Below are positions 16,955 through 25,190 of a stretch of 64,000 bases of DNA, piece after piece. Source of the stretch: Saksenaea vasiformis B4078 (taxonomy: Eukaryota > Mucoromycota > Mucoromycetes > Mucorales > Saksenaeaceae); the NCBI GenBank assembly GCA_000697055.1, contig JNDT01001890.1, forward strand, positions 1 through 64,000, in the 5' to 3' direction. The notes under the pieces are model-generated. The model did no database searches, had not been told where the DNA came from, and was given only the letters and a program-made list of their open reading frames with translations. How positions within the stretch are numbered: the first letter of the stretch is position 1; the number at the start of each line of letters is the position of its first letter. Both the position numbers and the translations under genes were made by a program.

Positions 16955-19920
16955 TCACATGTTTGTGAACATATGGCTGGACGGATTGACCGCGCCTGTT
17001 GAGTTTGTTGCATATGACATGATGTGCTCTCCACGTGGAGTACCTGCTCCTACTGAAGAAGGTTCCATCATTGCGGGTACATGGAAGGTTTGTGGCACAT
17101 TCGGTTGATCCGGGGTATATGGCTTGACATAAGCGGGTGGTGGTGGAATGGATAAACGTAAGGACTGTGACATCAATTGGTTGTTGTGATAAATTTGCGA
17201 AGGTGCTAAATGGTCATGCTGAGGCTGTGCATGCATTGGCATAGAAATGTTGGTAGGCACAGATCCGTTGAAGCTGTACGACGGGGCCGTGGTGTAAGGT
17301 ACAGATGATTCCTGCTGTATGTCATGTATTCTTTCGTGCTTTTTTAACGATCGGGAATGGTAATACGCCTTTCCGCATCCTTTAGCAGGACAAATGTATG
17401 GACGGACATTAGAATGTGTTTTAATGTGGGTTGTCAATGAATCGGGTCTAGAAAATCGTTTTTCGCAACCTGTAACGTTTTTATCAGTCATGATTTCAGA
17501 AAAAAAAACCTAAGTCAAATCTTACCAGGTTTTGTGCATACAAATGGACGCTCGCCCGTATGTGTTCTGAGATGATTGTACATCTTGTGTCGCTTTGTGA
17601 ATGGTTTCTGATTTCGCGCACAACCTTCCCACTCACAGGTATAGGTAGGCTACATCTTCAATCAGCACAAAAAAGAAAAACGAACCTGTCTATTCTATAC
17701 CTTTCCACTGCCAACATGATTTTCACGGATATGGGCAATCAGCTGTTGTAACTCATCAAACTTTTCACCGCACTGCTTCCAGCGGCACTGAACTTGCTCC
17801 TTTGCTAGTTCCTGCTGATCTCCATCCCCTTCTTCTTCCTCCTCTTCTTCTTCATCCAACTCTTCTTCCTCATCTGCTACACCTTCTCCATTATCTTGTT
17901 GTTGCTCGTCAAGTGGTGTCGATGGACCATCTTCCTCTTCTTCATCCACATACGTACTTGTTTCCGATTTGATCTCAGCTACACCCTCCTGTGGGGTCGT
18001 TGCAGGCTTACGAGTAGGTTCATCTATCGACATTCTTGTACTTCCGCCAGGGCTGTTCTGCAGGGATCCTGCTCGCTTCTCTGTCTCCAGTTCCATAAGG
18101 CGTGCAATCAACTGTTCACGGGACATGTCTTGAAATTCCTTGGTAGATACATTAGCACTCTCAGCCAAGGACTGCGATAATCCCGGTGTTGACTGTGTCT
18201 GTAATCCCAGCTCTGTCGGACTTGGCCGCGGCGGAAGAGTGATCTGTTTAGGAATTTGTTTGGCGTCTTTCTGGTTAAGCTCCGCTGATGCGTCTGCTAC
18301 AGGTTCTGCGGCAACAGTTGTTGTACACTGGTCGCCACTATCTACAGGCTGACGATCAGGTGCATACTGTGTTACATTGACTGAAGAATGTGAAGCGTTT
18401 GCTTGTGCCTGAATTGCATTCGTTCCAATGGTTGACAAAGGTGAGTGACCGTTCGACACGGCTTGTCTTCGTACTTTGCTTTGATGATTATTCGCGATTG
18501 AATCCTGTGATGAACGCTTTGCAAGTGGAGGACTATCTTCTTTCATGTACGTTATTTGATTGGCTGCTTCTTGATGCTGTTGAAACGGATGAAACGGTTG
18601 TTGGTTAAAGCTCCCTTGCACAGCAGAAGGATCGGCAGGGAAGGCGGGTGGTTGCATTTGAACCATTATATTCGCCTGTACTGTGCTTGTAGGTATCTGC
18701 GGTGTGAGCGGGTGATGGGTGGCAACGGATTCAGTCGTAGCAACACCAAACGCATGAAGGCGCTGTTCGATCGGCGACAAAAACTGCTCTGTCATTGGTT
18801 GCGGTTGCGTGGAAATCGTAATAGGGTGCATTGTATTATGTACTGGCAGCAGTGCTTGCTCCGAAGGGGGAGCTGACTGCGCTTGTTCGTGCATTGCTGC
18901 CACCTGCTGTGCCATAACATGTTGTAACACGGCAGCTTGAGCGCCGGATGTCGGTGGCTGAGAAGAAGAAACGGCTTGCATAGAGACCATCTTCTGTGCC
19001 ATTGCCTGTTGTACTGCCACTGCCTGCTGCTGTGCTTCAAATGACTCCTGTTGAGAAATTGCTTGCTGCAGCGCTGAGCGATACTCTTGTTGTTGCTGCT
19101 GCTGTTGATGGTGGTGATGCACAGGTACAAGTGCGTGTTGAGAGGAAACTACTGGTTGAGTCTCCAACGGCTGTCGATTAAAGATCATGTTCTGTAGCAT
19201 TTGCTGTTCATGTTGGTGCTGAAGCTGTATCTGTTGTTGTTGTTGGTGCTGCTGCTGCTGTTGTTGTTGTTGTCGTTGTTCTTGCTGTTGCTGCTGCTGT
19301 TGCTGTTGGAATAAATGTTGTTCCTGAAGCTGCTGATTATGCGGATCATATCGAATCTGATCTGAATGGAGCTGTTGCAATTGATGAAATGACTGGTTTG
19401 GAATCTGCTCAGCCGGGTGTGCAACATGCTGTCCCACCATGCCCAGCCTGCCACTCTGGTCAGGTACCAGTATCATGTCGGCTTGAGAGCCATCATTCAA
19501 TGCAGAACTTTTCCTCAATAAATTCTGCTGCTGATTAGATTGAAGCTGAAGAGCATGTTCTGCAAAAGGTGGATTTGTGTTCTGTTGCTGCTGCTGAGAT
19601 AACATGGAATCAATTCTCTTTCTACAATAATTCGTTCTTTTTATTACCATTATATCAGGATTCTGCAGAGAGACATTCTGAGGTATCAACATAGGCTGCC
19701 CCTGAGCCGTTTCTGTCAAGGTATGCTGATCCATTTGTGATAGTGTTGTAAGCTGACTGGAGAACAGGGCGCACGCTAATCTTACCTCTTGTCCGCTGCT
19801 ACCCGGAGGTGCACCAGCATTTGTCAAAATTTGCGTGCTACCATATAAATGAGACAATGGTTGCTGTTGGTTTGACATGGGCGTCATTGACTGCGACAGT
19901 TGTTGACCGTACTGTTGCAT
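16955..19920 (-). CDS. GLI-like five-C2H2-finger, glutamine-rich transcription factor
   Basis: Three exons close to 952 aa: 19920-17701, 17649-17526 and 17469-16955. Residues 1-620 are dominated by Gln/His tracts coded by CAG and CAA. An acidic patch (EEEELDEEEEEEEEGDGD) precedes the DNA-binding part. The fingers run CRWKQCGEKF...HIRENH, CEWEGCARNQKPF...HLRTH, CTKPGCEKRFSRPDSLTTH, CPAKGCGKAYYHSRSLKKH, plus the spacing of the atypical first finger. The first two show the long, irregular spacing seen in GLI/ZIC proteins. A Pro/Ser/Gln-rich tail follows. The target genes are unknown. The first in-frame ATG after an upstream TAG was taken as start. A 60-nt stretch in exon 1 (GTAAGA...GATCAG, about 19787-19728) looks like an intron whose removal also keeps frame. 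Confidence 0.85.
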
Positions 19921-19999
19921 GTCGACGGAATGTTGTATGCCGTCCGAGCACAACCGTACTATGTTCCCCACAGGTTGTGACTGTTGCTGAAAGTGCGTG

Positions 20000-20995
20000 A
20001 CAAATTCCTATATTGGGAAACACTTCTTCTTTGCTCCAAGCATACTCCATAGCATCAAAATACTTCTTTATCTCCAGAAACTTTTCAGGCGAGCATCCTT
20101 CGCAGCTTTGGAACTCTTGCAGGAAGTTTTGCATTCTCTGTTCCAAGACTGTCTTCTGTGACGCGAAGTCCAATGTGCCATCTTCCGTGTTTTGAACTGG
20201 AATAGTTGCTGTTACATGTGAGTAAGTAGACACTATTAACAGCATTATGCGTTAGAAGCTGTATGCAAGTAGTTTTCTACAATACCTTGAAGGACGTTTA
20301 GGTTGGGATTGGCACGCTGGAGAAGATACATATGTTTGCATGCTACTTGGCGCCAGACGAAGTCTCTGCAGGTGCATGCTGTCATGTTCGAATTTTCGAC
20401 AGAAATATTATATGCTACGCCCTCCTGTGTGAATGATCTGACAGTATGATCGGGACCATATCGTCAACTACAGCACTAGGTATCTGGGCAGCTGCAATCT
20501 CTCGTCGTCTTCTCTCTCTTTCTGCGGGCCCCATTCTTCCGATATTCGCGCTTACTCGTGTCGTGGTCATTTGGAAGTCGAACTCCACATCGTGTATCAA
20601 TATCAAGTCAGTAATGATCTTCTTGTGATCCGTTTGTTCTCTGCTGTATTTCCAACGTCGATTCACTTGCGAGGATTATCCCTACACGATCTAGCTACGT
20701 GCCATAGTTGGATACATACGTTCAAATGTGCAAATCTGTCTTGCAGCTCGACACGTATATCTTGCTGCTGGTTTTTGTTGAATCTTACTAAAAATGATTT
20801 TCTTCCACCCCTTGCATTCTGCTTATTTTCGGGTACATTTGCATTTCATTTTGCAAAGTTTTTATCACATCATCGAGATCCAACTGTGGCAACGTCTACC
20901 TGTGTCCCAATCATTGCTGCACTACACAATCGCTTATTATCTTCAATATGGAAGATAGTTCTGCATCTACAAGCTTCTTCCAGGTTATTTTCTCT
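20000..20995 (-). pseudogene. SWIM zinc-finger protein relic, Mutator-transposase-like
   Basis: A SWIM motif is clear at about 20350-20320: CTCRDFVWRQVACKHMYLL (CxC...CxH). Upstream come HDVEFDFQ and GRMGPAERERRRREIAAAQ, a spacing I associate with SWIM regions of Mutator-like transposases and FAR1-type derivatives. Downstream is a coiled-coil-like tail (QRMQNFLQEFQSCEG...EIKKYFDAMEY). Exons use GTATTG and GTAGAC-type donors. At least two joins fail by one base: near 20675 (DNPRK into VNRRW) and near 20895 (MIGTQVDVA into LDLDDVIKTLQ). A decayed gene is the simplest reading. It lies about 500 bp from, and divergent to, the Fanzor gene. No catalytic DDE region was identified. Confidence 0.55.
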
Positions 20996-21500
20996 TTAAA
21001 TAAAAGGGGTAGTTTCTTTTGAGACAGGACAACACCGTCCACAGAGACCAGTTTCTGACAGGAATTGTTTGTGATTAGCTGTAGGAATATCTTTCCGATC
21101 TGACGGACAAAGAACAGGATTTACTCGCACGCAGCGATCAAACGTTGACCAATAGGCTTTAAACAGTACGAAGGTTCATACGTCTTGTGGCCACACTGCC
21201 TGTGTAATTAATCCTGAAACGCTGGGGTCTACTGCTGAAGTTATATGGTAGGCGTAAGGTTGATAAATCCTGAAACACTGATTTATCAGGAGCTTAAAGG
21301 CGAAAAATTACGTCGACTGATCAGATTACAACACAATGAATGCCAAGTGTGACACAAGTTTGCTGCAGTTCATAACAATGAAAACTGGCAGATAAATAAG
21401 CTCAATTTTTGACAACGTCCTCTGATCTTTATCATTTTATTCTTCTGTTACCCTTTGGAGCTTTTCCTCGTCGCCTGCTGTTTTACTCTGCCTGCAACTG
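20996..21500. promoter_or_regulatory. Divergent intergenic region upstream of the Fanzor gene
   Basis: About 500 bp between the SWIM relic and the Fanzor start. It contains an inverted repeat, TGATAAAT at 21261-21268 with ATTTATCA at 21281-21288, whose 12-nt loop includes CCTGAAACACTG; a near copy, CCTGAAACGCTG, occurs about 50 bp upstream. These could be protein-binding sites or transposon-end remnants. No terminal inverted repeat was matched on the far side of the Fanzor gene. Confidence 0.3.
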
Positions 21501-24500
21501 ATGGAGCCCCTTGCAGAAGAAGGGCCGCCACGGCAGCGGCAACGACAACGGTACCGTCAATCGCTTTTGCCACGAACCGATGGGAGAACTTCAAGGGTTA
21601 CCAGAAAGCTGAAGCTTTCGAGCTTTCTCAATGAAGACTACAAGTATCTGCGAGTAAGGTTTCACTGCATTGGTAAATATGTTACTAAAATGCTATTGAC
21701 AGGAACAAATCCGTTTCGTTGCTGATGAGTATCATGTAATGAGGCGGGATGCGGTTAACCTGGTGAACCTACACTTGCGTCGCTGGGTCGAAGGACTAGG
21801 CACAGAAAGCGCATTCGGCTTCCCGCCTATTACGACCAGAGCTTTTTGGGTTAAAGCTTTTCGTATCACAAACGATCGAGTCAGTAGGGTGTTAGGAAGC
21901 TTAGACGTAAGTACATCCTACAATTTTATGGAGATGTCTAAAAGGAAGATATGTTGTTTAGCCTCAATGGCAACTAGACCTACTGGAGACATTTATGTCC
22001 CACTTTTATCCCTTGCGCAGAAACATAGACGCTAACGAAAGTAAGATATATCTGCTCATATCCACCGACCGTTTCTAAATTGTATGCATAATAGACTTTT
22101 ATGAAGTCGTAGAAGTGCAAGGAGTATACATTCCAATTGCATCCGCTTTTGCCCCAGAAATCGTACAAAGTACTGTGATGATCGTATTATTGATGCATGG
22201 TTAACATTTGTAACTTATGTCAACAGATGTGAAGCGCCATTTGGTGATAAATGTTCCTGTGTTTCTGAAGTCTGTCTGCAGTGCCTATTTTCTTCAACTG
22301 AAGGAAAGGTTTGGAGGAAACCTTCCTGGAGGTGGACCAGCTCACCACGGTAAATAAGCATCTTTCTAAATGGCTGGTAGTCTCACTTCTATTATTTATA
22401 GCTGACACGGCTGTAGCAAATATTCTGAACCATGAACCACTACAGGACGACATGTGGGAGGATATGCCTCATCGGGCAGAACTAGCAGAGTTTTACCGGT
22501 AAGCATGACATGAACTGTCCACAGTTGACTAATATTTATGCTACTACTACAGTGTTCAGCACGAACTATACGAACGTCATATGGCTGGTGTGGAAATCCA
22601 TAATTTGGACCCGGAAGACGATGAAGCTGTTCCGCTCATGTCACGCATTGTTCAATATATATATCACTTGCACCAATACAGTACCGAGTATAACGGCAAA
22701 ACCTGGTCATTACTACCAGTGATCAGTCATCAGATTGGTCATTTTCCCATATTCACATCCGTACTGTGGTATCTGCTGCGAGACGCCTATTTGGCAAACC
22801 AACACGTTCCCGAGTCATTTCTGGCAACGCTCCATTTGTACAGTGCATGTAACTGACATTTTTCACTTTAGCGAGGACCGCAAGTCGGAGGACGAGTGAG
22901 ATACCTGCCTCTACAACAATTTGAGCTTCGTTGTCGCGACAGTGAGTGGAAAGAGGCACTTTGGGAAGAAATTTTCAACATCGATAAATGCCAAGCGAAA
23001 CGTCGACGATTTGATCCTGACCGTAAGCCATCATCCGCTTTAAGTCGATCATCTAATTGATTTGTTTTTAAAGATCATCAACCGGAACTACAGTTGGAGT
23101 TTGCGTATTACTTGCAAACCGATGGGGTATCGGTCTCTGTGCAATTCGACCGCCGTCGCTCGGGTACGCCAATGGAAAGTTTACTACTACTTACTATGTT
23201 TGATTAGAACGATATCCATCTTCCAAACGAGATTTTCGGCTGCTTCCGCGAGAGATGGACCTGAGCACCTGGCAAGGAGGCATATATCATCTGAACAAAG
23301 AGCCTCATGGGCTAGATCAAGACCGATTAGCTCAGTCAAGAATTGTTGGCGTGGATCCAGGTATAAGTCAACTAACTATTTCATTGCCATGTCTAATATA
23401 TTGACAGGGATCAGATCGTTGTTCACAGCCGTAGATACAAACGAAGCTATGGACACTCCCGAACTTCGCAACGCTCATTCTGCCACGATCAGTAACAAAG
23501 AATACCAGTAAGTGACAAATGTCCCCCTATTGTTGAGCTAATCCCAGCATTGGTAGATTGCGTTCGATGTTTACATGGTCGAAACAGAATGAACTGAAGT
23601 CTAGAACCACGGCCCAAATACAGCCACATTACGACTTGTTGACAAACAATCCTCCCACCGTTATGAGCGTACAAGGGTTTAAGGGATATATTGCCGCCTT
23701 GAGCATCATCCATAACACGTAAAAAGAAAAAAGCATGAAATCAATTCTGATAAACCCTTAATAGACTCCATAACTTCAACAAAAGCTACCGACATCGGGA
23801 AAACCGGTTCCTTCTCTACTCTTCCAGGCAAAGCACACTCGACGTGCTAGCAGACCGCATCGCCAACTGGACACCCCGAGACGTAAGTTCGTCATGCCCT
23901 CGTACTATGCTAACTTATCTAATAAAAAAATAGCCAGACGTACGACCACACTACAGGTCGACCCCCTCATCGCGGAAGCATCGCCGTCGCAAGGCCCGCC
24001 GACATCATCCTCGCCCAGAACAACCAGCAATCATTGCGTACGGTGACGCGGATTTGCGACCTTCAATGCGGGGCCAAGGTCCAGTTCCAGTGAAAGTTAG
24101 TGCGTGCAAGCTTTGTAGACAAGGTCTCACAGATTCCAATACTAGACATTCCGACGAGTTCTGGCAAGACACGCTCTCGTTGTTCTGGTCGATGAATACA
24201 AAACTAGCAAGGTGTGTTCAAACTGCGACCATGACACGGAACAGTTTCGAGCACCAACTGCACGATGTCAGCACGAGTATGTATCATACAGCTGTGACTA
24301 TTGAAAGTTAATTTCTCCATCAACAGGACAAAGGTGGTTCGGTTTGTCGGGGCTGGGAGAGCCAAACGCTACTGTCTTGATGAGAACAAACGAACGATGC
24401 ATCCGACATCACAATGCCCAGAACTTCGACCGCTAGGCAAGTGAATATTAGTTTGCATACTTGTTATTCTAACCGGGTCTTTAATGCAGCCATTACAGAT

Positions 24501-24781
24501 AATCGCAGCAGCGTGTATCCGATTAAGGTGTGCCACCACCATCAGTTGGGACAAGCTGTGGATGATCAAGGTCCCAGACCGTTGGTAAGTGTTGTTCGAA
24601 CTATTATTCCATTATCTGATTACTCCTATAGTTCTGGAACCGCGACGTGAATGCGGGAAGAAATATGAGAAGGATCTTGGTTGCCTACATGGAAAATGGA
24701 CACCAGCTGGAATCAAGACCCCTCTCCTTACAACGACCTCAACAACAACAACAACCGCCCCATATCGGGGCTAGGCAGTAA
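21501..24781 (+). CDS. Fanzor protein, eukaryotic TnpB-like RNA-guided endonuclease
   Basis: Eighteen exons close in frame to about 800 aa: 21501-21653, 21703-21906, 21989-22040, 22113-22169, 22227-22349, 22402-22498, 22553-22823, 22872-23022, 23074-23178, 23208-23360, 23408-23507, 23548-23718, 23765-23882, 23934-24095, 24146-24276, 24327-24436, 24490-24584 and 24632-24781. The N-terminus is basic (possible NLS). Family marks in order: a LLP block (KTWSLLPVISHQ), LQTDGVSVSVQF, RuvC-I RIVGVDPG (D454), AYGDADLRPSMRGQGPVP, RuvC-II VDEYKTSKVCSNC (E656, T659-S660), and RuvC-III FWNRDVNAGRN (D756). The 204 residues from D454 to TS fit the Fanzor/TnpB signature. The second zinc pair is unusual: CHHH where Cys-x-x-Cys is common. 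Two junctions use GC donors (24437 clear; 22824 inferred because no GT donor there keeps frame). No stop or frameshift is forced, so the nuclease could be active. Exons 3-4 and 7-8 are the least certain. Confidence 0.9.
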
Positions 24782-24840
24782 GAAACTGCCAACAAGCCTC
24801 TTGTCAGGCATTCGGTGTGCTGTCTTCGGGCAGGTAAGTG
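24782..24840 (+). ncRNA. Candidate guide (omega) RNA region 3' of the Fanzor gene
   Basis: Known Fanzor and TnpB guide RNAs overlap or follow the 3' end of the gene. Just after the stop, CTGCC (24786-24790) can pair with GGCAG (24829-24833), enclosing a tight hairpin ACAAG-CCT-CTTGT (24792-24804). A GTAAGTGG follows at 24834, which could be a splice donor in a longer transcript. The pairing is short and may be chance. The guide boundary and the transposon end that would define it were not found. Confidence 0.22.
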
Positions 24841-24887
24841 GAAATTGTATTTGAATTGGAAAAACTTATGTCATCTTTTTCTGTGAC

Positions 24888-25190
24888 TTAAGTGCACCGA
24901 AGTGGATTGGTACGTGAAGAAGCTTCGAGGACCGAAGTGGGATGGGTTGTCATGAGCACATGCTGTTGTGATGACTGATTACTATCAGGTACAGCGTTGA
25001 TATTAAAAGGAACAGAAACTGGTTGAGTACAGGCCGGGACTGGTACTAAGTAATGAATGGCGGAGGAATCTGTAGTTGATGGTACCGTTTGCGTATGTAA
25101 GCTTTGTTGCGTGCTAGTTTGGTCTTCTTGTGTTCGTGCGCAAGCCTGTACTTGTAGCGAGATAGGATAGCTAGTTTGGTGTGCTTCCAT
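24888..25190 (-). CDS. Small hypothetical Thr/Gln/Ser-rich protein
   Basis: An ATG at 25190 opens a 100-codon frame ending in TAA at 24888, directly behind and opposite to the Fanzor gene. The peptide is rich in Gln, Thr, Pro and Val (QACARTQEDQTSTQQ) with no recognised domain or signal peptide. Its composition is unlike random translation of this AT-rich region, but it may be one exon of a longer gene or part of the mobile unit carrying Fanzor. Confidence 0.35.
   Translation of the reverse strand: MEAHQTSYPISLQVQACARTQEDQTSTQQSLHTQTVPSTTDSSAIHYLVPVPACTQPVSVPFNINAVPDSNQSSQQHVLMTTHPTSVLEASSRTNPLRCT

Follow-up and report, generated by a model that had tools for sequence, protein, structure and literature searches.

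Introduction

The closest described systems are the Fanzor1 nucleases PpFz1, of Parasitella parasitica (PDB 9cf0-9cf3), and SpuFz1, of Spizellomyces punctatus (PDB 8gkh and others). In both, the omega RNA lies at the 3′ end and has two small stem-loops before a guide derived from the flanking DNA (PMC11423790, PMC10432273; papers are cited here for the parts of their texts that were covered), and one small stem-loop lies between SL1 and the guide (PMC11423790). We describe here a Fanzor1 gene in the first 64 000 nucleotides (nt) of contig JNDT01001890.1 of Saksenaea vasiformis B4078, a 64-kb stretch hereafter called the window. Its protein carries the RuvC triad and the zinc region in the same order as these two nucleases, and its sequence similarity to PpFz1 is only distant. 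Its candidate omega RNA would have the same layout, with a hairpin, P4, in the place of the single small stem-loop. We suggest that this RNA is probably assembled by pre-mRNA splicing, which would join the guide to the scaffold. The predicted splicing of a guide RNA is the surprising part of the locus, and as a reading of the DNA sequence it is likely. The gene by itself is a new member of the known Fanzor1 kind.

As predicted for the window copy, the omega RNA overlaps the coding 3′ end in GtFz1 and in ISDra2 TnpB; the overlap is 17 amino acids in GtFz1 (PMC10432273) and about 7 codons plus the stop codon, from 24757, here. For GtFz1 and ISDra2 TnpB, the parts of the sources covered mention no intron at the border of scaffold and guide such as the one predicted here. 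SpuFz1 is a single open reading frame (ORF), unlike the 18-exon window gene (PMC10432273). Introns are known from other Fanzor1 genes, with five exons in Chlamydomonas CRe-1 and ten in CRe-2 and CRe-3, supported by expressed sequence tags (PMC3627910), so that an intron-rich Fanzor1 gene is ordinary. Neither PMC10432273 nor PMC11423790 contains the word ‘intron’ in its main text, and ‘spliced’ is absent from that of PMC10432273; the string ‘splic’ occurs twice in PMC11423790, for the roles of cyclophilins and in one reference. In a literature search, no title or abstract opening among the matches listed describes a spliced omega RNA, which does not establish its absence from print. We know of no eukaryotic RNA-guided nuclease that relies on the spliceosome for its guide.

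Results and discussion

The right end of the element and the candidate omega RNA

The genome searched comprises 38.7 Mb in 666 contigs, and the window is bases 1-64000 of contig C420. A 65-nt stretch that surrounds the stop codon of the Fanzor gene and extends beyond it recurs at 40 loci. Of these, 23 belong to the window-like family A (three of which the search recovered in part) and 17 to a second family, D, which has only the first 42 bases or so in common with A. The recurring stretch holds part of stem P1, followed by P2, P3 and the 5′ arm of P4. P2 is GGCAG/CTGCC in family A and GGCCG/CGGCC in family D, a compensating difference. After the scaffold, copies of both families have a GT donor, which opens a stretch that in most copies totals about 54-61 nt, then an AG, 8-10 nt more and finally variable DNA. 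Each A or D copy in which the right end is present has a flank of its own beyond this point, and so many independent insertions with differing flanks define this end; in the window, it was set at 24902, where the sibling copies diverge.

The candidate omega RNA starts within the last 7 or so codons of the gene and reaches past the annotated gene end at 24781. It has a predicted fold, it is conserved and it is followed by a copy-specific flank, from which the guide would be taken; for the guide length, about 15 nt, we use the value of SpuFz1. Scanning the window for Rfam families and for tRNAs gave no hit. The predicted guide occurs at one other place in the genome, with 1 mismatch in 16, and we take this 15/16 match as chance rather than as a true second site. 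No empty site was recovered, the right flank being found in the genome only at the window locus.

An intron-like stretch between scaffold and guide

Splice sites were ranked with a score trained on the 17 coding introns of the Fanzor gene alone and blind to structure. In the window copy, 24834-24892 (GTAAGT...AAG) ranks first among the GT-AG pairs that lie between the stop codon and the right end. Its score of 12.5 is inside the range of the coding introns, 9.4-16.3, and its 59 nt are within their range of lengths, 44-68 nt; its branch site, CTTAT, is weak. The 3′ boundary of this predicted intron lies 10 nt inside the right end. Excision would create the junction GGGCAG^TGCACCGAAG and give 14 consecutive pairs, wobbles included, with a UUCG cap and a folding energy of −21.9 kcal/mol. 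The pair probabilities of P4 in the spliced RNA are 0.96-1.0, with 0.73 for the outermost pair. The insert is bounded exactly by GT and AG in the window copy, and its removal leaves P4 without an unpaired base. Compared with the sibling copy on contig C525 (below, C525; other siblings are likewise named by contig), the intron is 63% identical and the post-stop scaffold 86.5%.

The stem was followed through family A in an alignment, A2, of nine distinct rows, which represent 17 of the 23 loci. One row, labeled ‘9copies’, stands for eight, and row C666 has lost the donor; L056, L065, L073, L074, L075 and L076 are omitted for a missing right end or a deletion in stem or scaffold. Of 117 cells, 95.7% are paired, and 10 of 500 shuffles, which ignore relatedness, reach the combined pairing and covariation score. 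With the arms slid, pairing is 29-51%. The outermost pair is C-G, A-U, G-U or U-A, the next U-G or C-G, and the next G-U, G-C or A-U. Where the search pattern left the border free, GT is found there in 18/19 A copies and 14/15 D copies.

Random sequence seldom reproduces this arrangement. Among 19 935 random 120-nt stretches of the window, none combined a top-ranked intron (score at least 11, ending within 20 nt of the end of the stretch) with a helix of at least 12 pairs, while 104 did so with at least 7 pairs and 587 with at least 5. Random 3′ exons reached the window stem in 30 of 20 000 draws, and none of 3000 reached it by folding energy; the draws may include the site itself.

What could be the function of such an intron? 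Its 3′ end carries TGTGAC (24882-24887), which matches, in inverted orientation, the TGTCAC at the left terminus of the sibling copies. In view of this match, it is possible that the intron allows a DNA-level terminal repeat to lie between scaffold and guide while leaving the RNA undisturbed.

Junction-spanning stems in other Fanzor families

Beyond families A and D, 46 further right ends were examined. Forty of them fall into three similarity groups, from which we distinguish families B, C, E, F, G and H; the other six (L002, L115, L121, L123, L127 and L130) have no sibling and were left unjudged, and L001 and L004 were also left aside. The full list has 59 copies, 45 of which are distinct and have a right end that fits the narrower patterns, copies with decayed ends being outside the 45. 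The search patterns for B, C and H partly required GT/AG borders. Families F and G were judged on L111, L107 and L120 alone, and family E on L094. In alignment A3, the row naming L104 differs from L104 at the last base. Four family C loci, L095, L096, L097 and L098 (on C29, C33, C74 and C428), do not differ over 751 bases, flank included, which reflects either a larger duplicated stretch that carries the Fanzor or an assembly repeat, and they were counted once.

In 33 of the 45 distinct right ends (families A, B, C, D and H), the top-ranked intron is the one that gives the longest helix abutting the right end: 14/16 in A, 7/7 in B, 7/8 in D, 5/6 in H and 0/8 in C. The inserts are 152-162 nt long in B, 64-70 nt in C, 31-55 nt in D and 69-93 nt in H, and differ in sequence; in most copies, a donor resembling GTAAGT or GTAAAC and an AG lie at the helix border or close to it. 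The predicted acceptor is 2 nt from the right end in H and 8-12 nt in the others. In family B, the junction TACAGTT^GAAAAACTGTA would give seven pairs, with GAAA set between the arms. In family C, TACACTGCTTAG^GAGTAGTGTA would give eight or nine pairs, with A-U, G-U and G-C occurring at one position. The family D junction, GGGAGAGCTTC^GGCCCTTCC, has one mismatch in most copies and would complete a UUCG loop (UUC^G); the family H junction is TAGACNNNGTC^TA. The seven-pair junction stems of families F and G are suggestive, the splice scores in G being below 11. Family E has the ACAAGT/ACTTGT stem of family F unspliced and without an insert. The two families, E (L094, L099, L100, L105) and F (L106, L111, L119), are related, one intron-less and the other with an apparent intron, and are a natural pair in which to date the gain or loss.

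Random 3′ exons match the stem in 252 of 20 000 draws for C, 463 for B, 6478 for D and 6410 for H; by folding energy, the counts per 3000 are 36 for C, 120 for B, 638 for D and 2400 for H. Because random 3′ exons seldom match their stems, it is families A, B and C that, at the level of sequence, carry the case for a spliced stem; D and H are consistent with it but weak singly. The splice score is unusual only in family H, where 6 of 1000 random stretches score as high.

Is the omega RNA spliced?

Several observations count against splicing. The splice score alone is unremarkable, as 143 of 1000 random window stretches match that of the window intron, and the branch sites of family A, CTTAT or CTTAC, depart from the fungal RCTRAY. 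Only one pair of the family A stem changes on both sides, a count reached by 305 of 500 shuffles, and no measure of covariation stands out in family C (139-290 of 500 shuffles). A search of the genome for intron-less processed copies of A or D gave no match with two or fewer mismatches. The other families were studied after the pattern had already been noticed in A. A later AG scores slightly better in family C, where the stem-matching intron ranks second in 6/8; the donor or the acceptor is lost in L054, L075, L077, L081, L104 and L116; and the stems of D and H are equaled by about 32% of random 3′ exons. Furthermore, roughly the final 30 bases of the family A intron are conserved between subfamilies, and splicing has no need of such conservation.

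The last observation, together with the ordinary splice scores, would fit an omega RNA that is used unspliced. The 59-nt stretch would then be an extra domain or a transcribed transposon end, P4 would close as a multibranched stem, and the borders would be coincidental or decayed. The unspliced family A RNA does keep the outer eight pairs of P4 (0.93-0.98, outermost 0.72), with the intron held as an inserted, partly structured domain that includes an inner hairpin, CUUAYGUCA...UGUGACUUAAG, and GtFz1, whose omega RNA is larger, has three stem-loops between SL1 and the guide (PMC11423790). This alternative, however, leaves the exact coincidence of the window insert with GT and AG, and the gapless P4 after its removal, to chance. 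It also does not account for the inserts of B, C, D and H, which have similar borders in most copies yet differ in sequence and length, or for the terminal stem that family E has without the insert. We therefore consider an unspliced omega RNA unlikely.

A further alternative is that the acceptor at the right end serves the splicing of host genes, so that the element would be a spliceosomal counterpart of an IStron and the continuity of the guide stem a by-product. The nearness of the acceptor to the right end in all these families would suit such a role. In IStrons, some of which bear TnpB, splicing and a transposon also meet at the element ends, and their intron reportedly competes with the TnpB guide RNA, according to a 2024 paper. 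Bacterial IStrons unite an insertion sequence with a self-splicing group I intron, a ribozyme that makes insertions harmless (PMC4227781), whereas the stretch here is short and of the spliceosomal type, and would build a guide RNA. The best-ranked donor is inside the element, directly after the scaffold, rather than at its left end, and the window copy is outside any obvious gene in the sense orientation, as judged from the ORFs. Stem continuity across the junction in several families would also go unexplained, and we think a role in host splicing very improbable.

Proposed mechanism

In the mechanism that we propose, a transcript from the Fanzor promoter would run through the gene, its stop codon and the right end into the flanking DNA. 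The 3′ part of this transcript would fold as the omega RNA scaffold (P1-P3). The spliceosome would excise the 59-nt intron in the guide-adjacent stem, which would turn the two arms of P4 into one 14-pair hairpin directly before the guide. The Fanzor protein would then bind the spliced RNA and cut DNA that matches the flank. The gene, the selection on it, the conserved scaffold, the right end, the splice-like borders and the continuity of the stem are features of the sequence itself, from which we infer transcription, splicing, binding and cleavage. A structured RNA with spliceosomal introns within a stem-loop, as proposed here, has a precedent in the fungal U3 small nucleolar RNA, in which the introns are clustered in position and there is evidence of intron sliding and of occasional GC-AG borders (PMC5832005). 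U3 is not a nuclease guide, and in Mucoromycotina the study found none of these introns (PMC5832005).

More tentatively, splicing-dependent guide RNAs might be general in fungal Fanzor1, a proposition to which we give somewhat less than even weight, with the spliceosome as the licensing step that parts coding RNA from guide RNA. The same junction prediction is made by several multi-copy families. If this is correct, there would be no functional guide before splicing, and guides read straight from genomic DNA would be wrong. Already if the guide RNA is spliced as proposed here, the prediction of fungal Fanzor guides would change, as the mature RNA would lack about 50-160 nt of the genomic right ends in families A, B, C, D and H. 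Such splicing would also explain how an omega RNA can overlap an intron-rich mRNA, and it would mean that a eukaryotic RNA-guided nuclease needs the spliceosome to make its guide.

The Fanzor gene and its protein

The gene model was built from an alignment of the window copy and 18 further copies in the genome; it replaced a first automatic splice model, which produced spurious small introns. The initial annotation had described 18 exons with one frame of about 800 residues, and the final model, on the plus strand from the ATG at 21501 to the TAA ending at 24781, bears this out with 802 residues and no internal stop. In each of the other copies, most of the exons covered have the same length, and the positions of the 17 introns are mostly common to the siblings. 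The common exon lengths, together with a rate of nonsynonymous substitution (dN) far below that of synonymous substitution (dS), show that the model is not due to chance. The coordinates are given in Table 1.

Table 1. Coordinates of the mobile element, the Fanzor gene and the candidate omega RNA in the window.
Feature	Position	Strand	Basis or remark
Whole mobile element	19998..24902	.	Homology to siblings; left border 19994 or 19998 by copy compared
Decayed SWIM zinc-finger ORF remnant (C-terminal part, MULE-like transposase), divergent from Fanzor gene	20284..20660	-	Matches C420:20454-20660, 20284-20493
Fanzor exon 1 (ATG)	21501..21653	+	
Fanzor exon 2	21703..21906	+	
Fanzor exon 3	21962..22040	+	
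Fanzor exon 4	22095..22169	+	
Fanzor exon 5	22227..22349	+	
Fanzor exon 6	22402..22498	+	
Fanzor exon 7; GC-donor intron 22824-22871 next	22553..22823	+	Copy alignment
Fanzor exon 8	22872..23022	+	Copy alignment
Fanzor exon 9 (TDGVSV block)	23074..23163	+	
Fanzor exon 10 (LLP block; RuvC-I, IVGVDPG, D464)	23208..23360	+	
Fanzor exon 11	23408..23507	+	
Fanzor exon 12	23557..23718	+	
Fanzor exon 13	23765..23882	+	
Fanzor exon 14	23934..24095	+	
Fanzor exon 15 (RuvC-II, VDEYKTSKVCSNC, E663; cysteines C670, C673)	24146..24276	+	
Fanzor exon 16 (C720)	24327..24440	+	
Fanzor exon 17 (C736)	24509..24584	+	
Fanzor exon 18 (RuvC-III, WNRDVNAG, D758; stop codon 24779-24781)	24632..24781	+	
Candidate omega RNA scaffold	24757..24833	+	40 genomic loci, alignment, fold
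P1 of candidate omega RNA	GCCCC 24757-24761/GGGGC 24767-24771	+	
P2 of candidate omega RNA, enclosing the stop codon	GGCAG 24774-24778/CTGCC 24786-24790	+	
P3 of candidate omega RNA	GCCT 24796-24799/AGGC 24806-24809	+	
P4 pieces	5′ arm 24811-24824, UUCG loop 24825-24828, first half of 3′ arm 24829-24833	+	
Predicted GT-AG intron in omega RNA, 59 nt (GTAAGT...CTTAAG)	24834..24892	+	Splice-site score; identity contrast
3′ exon, second half of P4 3′ arm, TGCACCGAAG, up to element right end	24893..24902	+	
Predicted guide, flanking DNA directly outside right end	24903..24918	+	

The RuvC triad is present as D464, E663 and D758, which corrects the numbering D454, E656 and D756 given at first, and the distance from D464 to T666 is 202 residues, not 204, still in the Fanzor range. 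The T-S-x-x-C zinc-finger entry reported initially was found at T666-S667 with C670 and C673, and the DGVSV and LLP blocks were located as well. Bao and Jurka (2013, PMC3627910) give the Fanzor1 pattern as D-X(125,275)-[TS]-[TS]-X-X-C4 zinc finger-X(5,50)-RD. The window protein has D464; T666-S667; C670, C673, C720 and C736, which presumably bind zinc; and, after 20 residues, R757-D758.

The 802-residue protein matches PF07282, the family for the TnpB and Fanzor zinc-finger region, with E = 6.4e-5 and 23.5 bits, under the Pfam cut-off of 26.3, and NCBIfam guided_TnpB with 12.4 bits against a cut-off of 100. In PDB, no protein other than PpFz1 matches at E values up to 1, and this match is direct and weak, at E = 1.6e-3. 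A profile built from two sequences, those of the window protein and of a protein from family D, gave E = 2.3e-4 for PpFz1; aligned with PpFz1, it places the DGV and WNRD blocks in order, with insignificant scores. In a database of 5.8 billion entries, a single-sequence search gave no match at 1e-3 among the 7999 candidates scored, and the two-sequence profile found P0001 (1.6e-6) and P0002 (5e-3). P0001 in turn matches PpFz1 (4e-15), SpuFz1 (1e-13) and GtFz1 (1e-7), and P0002 matches PpFz1 (2e-21), SpuFz1 (1e-19) and GtFz1 (1e-9). Since these two intermediates match the proteins of solved Fanzor1 structures, we assign the window protein to Fanzor1 through them; the profile search proposed with the initial annotation thus succeeds by this transitive route, the direct Pfam and NCBIfam scores being below their cut-offs. 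A four-way alignment shows no variation at D464, E663, D758, T666, C670, C673 or C720. Nothing found points to Fanzor2 or TnpB: the TnpB score is low and the neighboring remnant is of the SWIM/MULE kind, no search having been aimed at a serine recombinase such as that of IS607.

A six-frame scan of the genome with PF07282 gave matches at at least 137 places, with 150 of 388 candidates scored. Two of the matches, at C525:135633 (452 amino acids) and C419:64464 (772 amino acids), lie in long open frames and are possibly intron-poor Fanzor genes.

Selection and the state of the window copy

For the window copy and C525, dN is 0.082 and dS 0.77, and identity is 83% in exons and 73% in coding introns. 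For the window copy and C662, which is 98% identical, dN is 0.0065 and dS 0.052. The Fanzor family is under strong purifying selection, with dN/dS about 0.1.

The initial annotation called the gene intact, with no lesion. The open frame stands: among the 19 aligned sequences, only the window copy is full-length and open throughout, and C662 is full-length with one stop in the shared exon model. The borders are GT-AG in 16 of the 17 coding introns; intron 7 (48 nt) is GC-AG in the window copy, and in the 12 other copies that cover it the donor is GT in 10, GC in C525 and AT in C214. By reading of the sequence, retention of intron 7 would give an in-frame stop, so that ‘no lesion’ requires the splicing of this GC-AG intron. 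In fungi, such borders are a common exception (PMC5832005). The left end of the window copy is also short by about 60 bp that are present in C525. The GC donor and the lost left terminus weaken the claim of an intact element.

These two defects, and the stops, frameshifts or truncations that most sibling copies have in the shared exon model, could also be taken to mean that the locus is an ordinary old Fanzor1 relic, with ancestral 3′ stems and introns and nothing expressed. A relic is hard to reconcile with the full open frame of the window copy and with a dN/dS of about 0.1 even in the comparison with C662, from which it is only about 5% apart at silent sites. We give this explanation very little weight.

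The mobile element and its surroundings

The gene is part of a larger repeated element, from about 19994-19998 to 24902, as seen from the 18 other copies aligned and the 40 scaffold loci; its siblings in C525, C456 and C552 are about 5 kb each. On its left side, C525 has a SWIM zinc-finger ORF of 143 amino acids in divergent orientation (PF04434, 18.6 bits; cut-off 19.6), and relatives of this ORF are found on many contigs that also carry Fanzor copies of family A or D. In the family D element of C606, the SWIM ORF leads into another transposase-like ORF, whose MULE match is weak; the scores of the family D ORFs are 13.9 bits for PF10551 (cut-off 27.6) and 15.8 bits for SWIM (cut-off 19.6). 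The family D element, as seen in L135 (C606:104000-108200) at 1403-2758 and in L031, seems to be a two-gene unit, with a MULE-like transposase divergent from the Fanzor gene.

Fanzor1 genes in MULE-like elements, as seems to be the case here, are known from Mucorales as the MuDr-type ROr-4, PBl-3 and MCi-4, which have terminal inverted repeats and 9-bp target-site duplications and are without a transposase (PMC3627910). By contrast, the family D element examined has a MULE-like transposase ORF beside the Fanzor gene, and its ends show only a short inverted match: the left end, TGTCACAAAC, matches the inverted TTTGTGAC close to the right end, and the terminal likeness, judged by eye, is confined to GTCACAAA and TTTGTGAC. 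No convincing terminal inverted repeats were seen in family A. Target-site duplications of about 9 bp were not found in the three family A copies C525, C456 and C552, where the longest words shared between the left and right 30-nt flanks are 6, 4 and 7 nt, respectively, away from the borders.

Variable 5′ regions beside a common Fanzor part, as in the siblings here, are known in the MCi-2 family of Mucor (PMC3627910). From 21498 rightward, the window copy is 98% identical to C662, which has no match in the upstream part. That part, 19994-21441, is 95.7% identical to C525, whereas the gene is 80% identical to that of C525. Thus, the window copy looks chimeric, with an A2-type gene joined to an A1-type upstream region within 21441-21498, just before the ATG.

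About 46 kb downstream and beyond the window, at C420:70255-70942 near the contig end, there is a 3′-terminal Fanzor fragment of the same family on the opposite strand. To the left of the element, the minus strand has a large ORF at 17695-20007 with glutamine runs and a zinc-finger-like end, as read from its translation. The left border of the element is at the 5′ end of this ORF, and the insertion may affect it.

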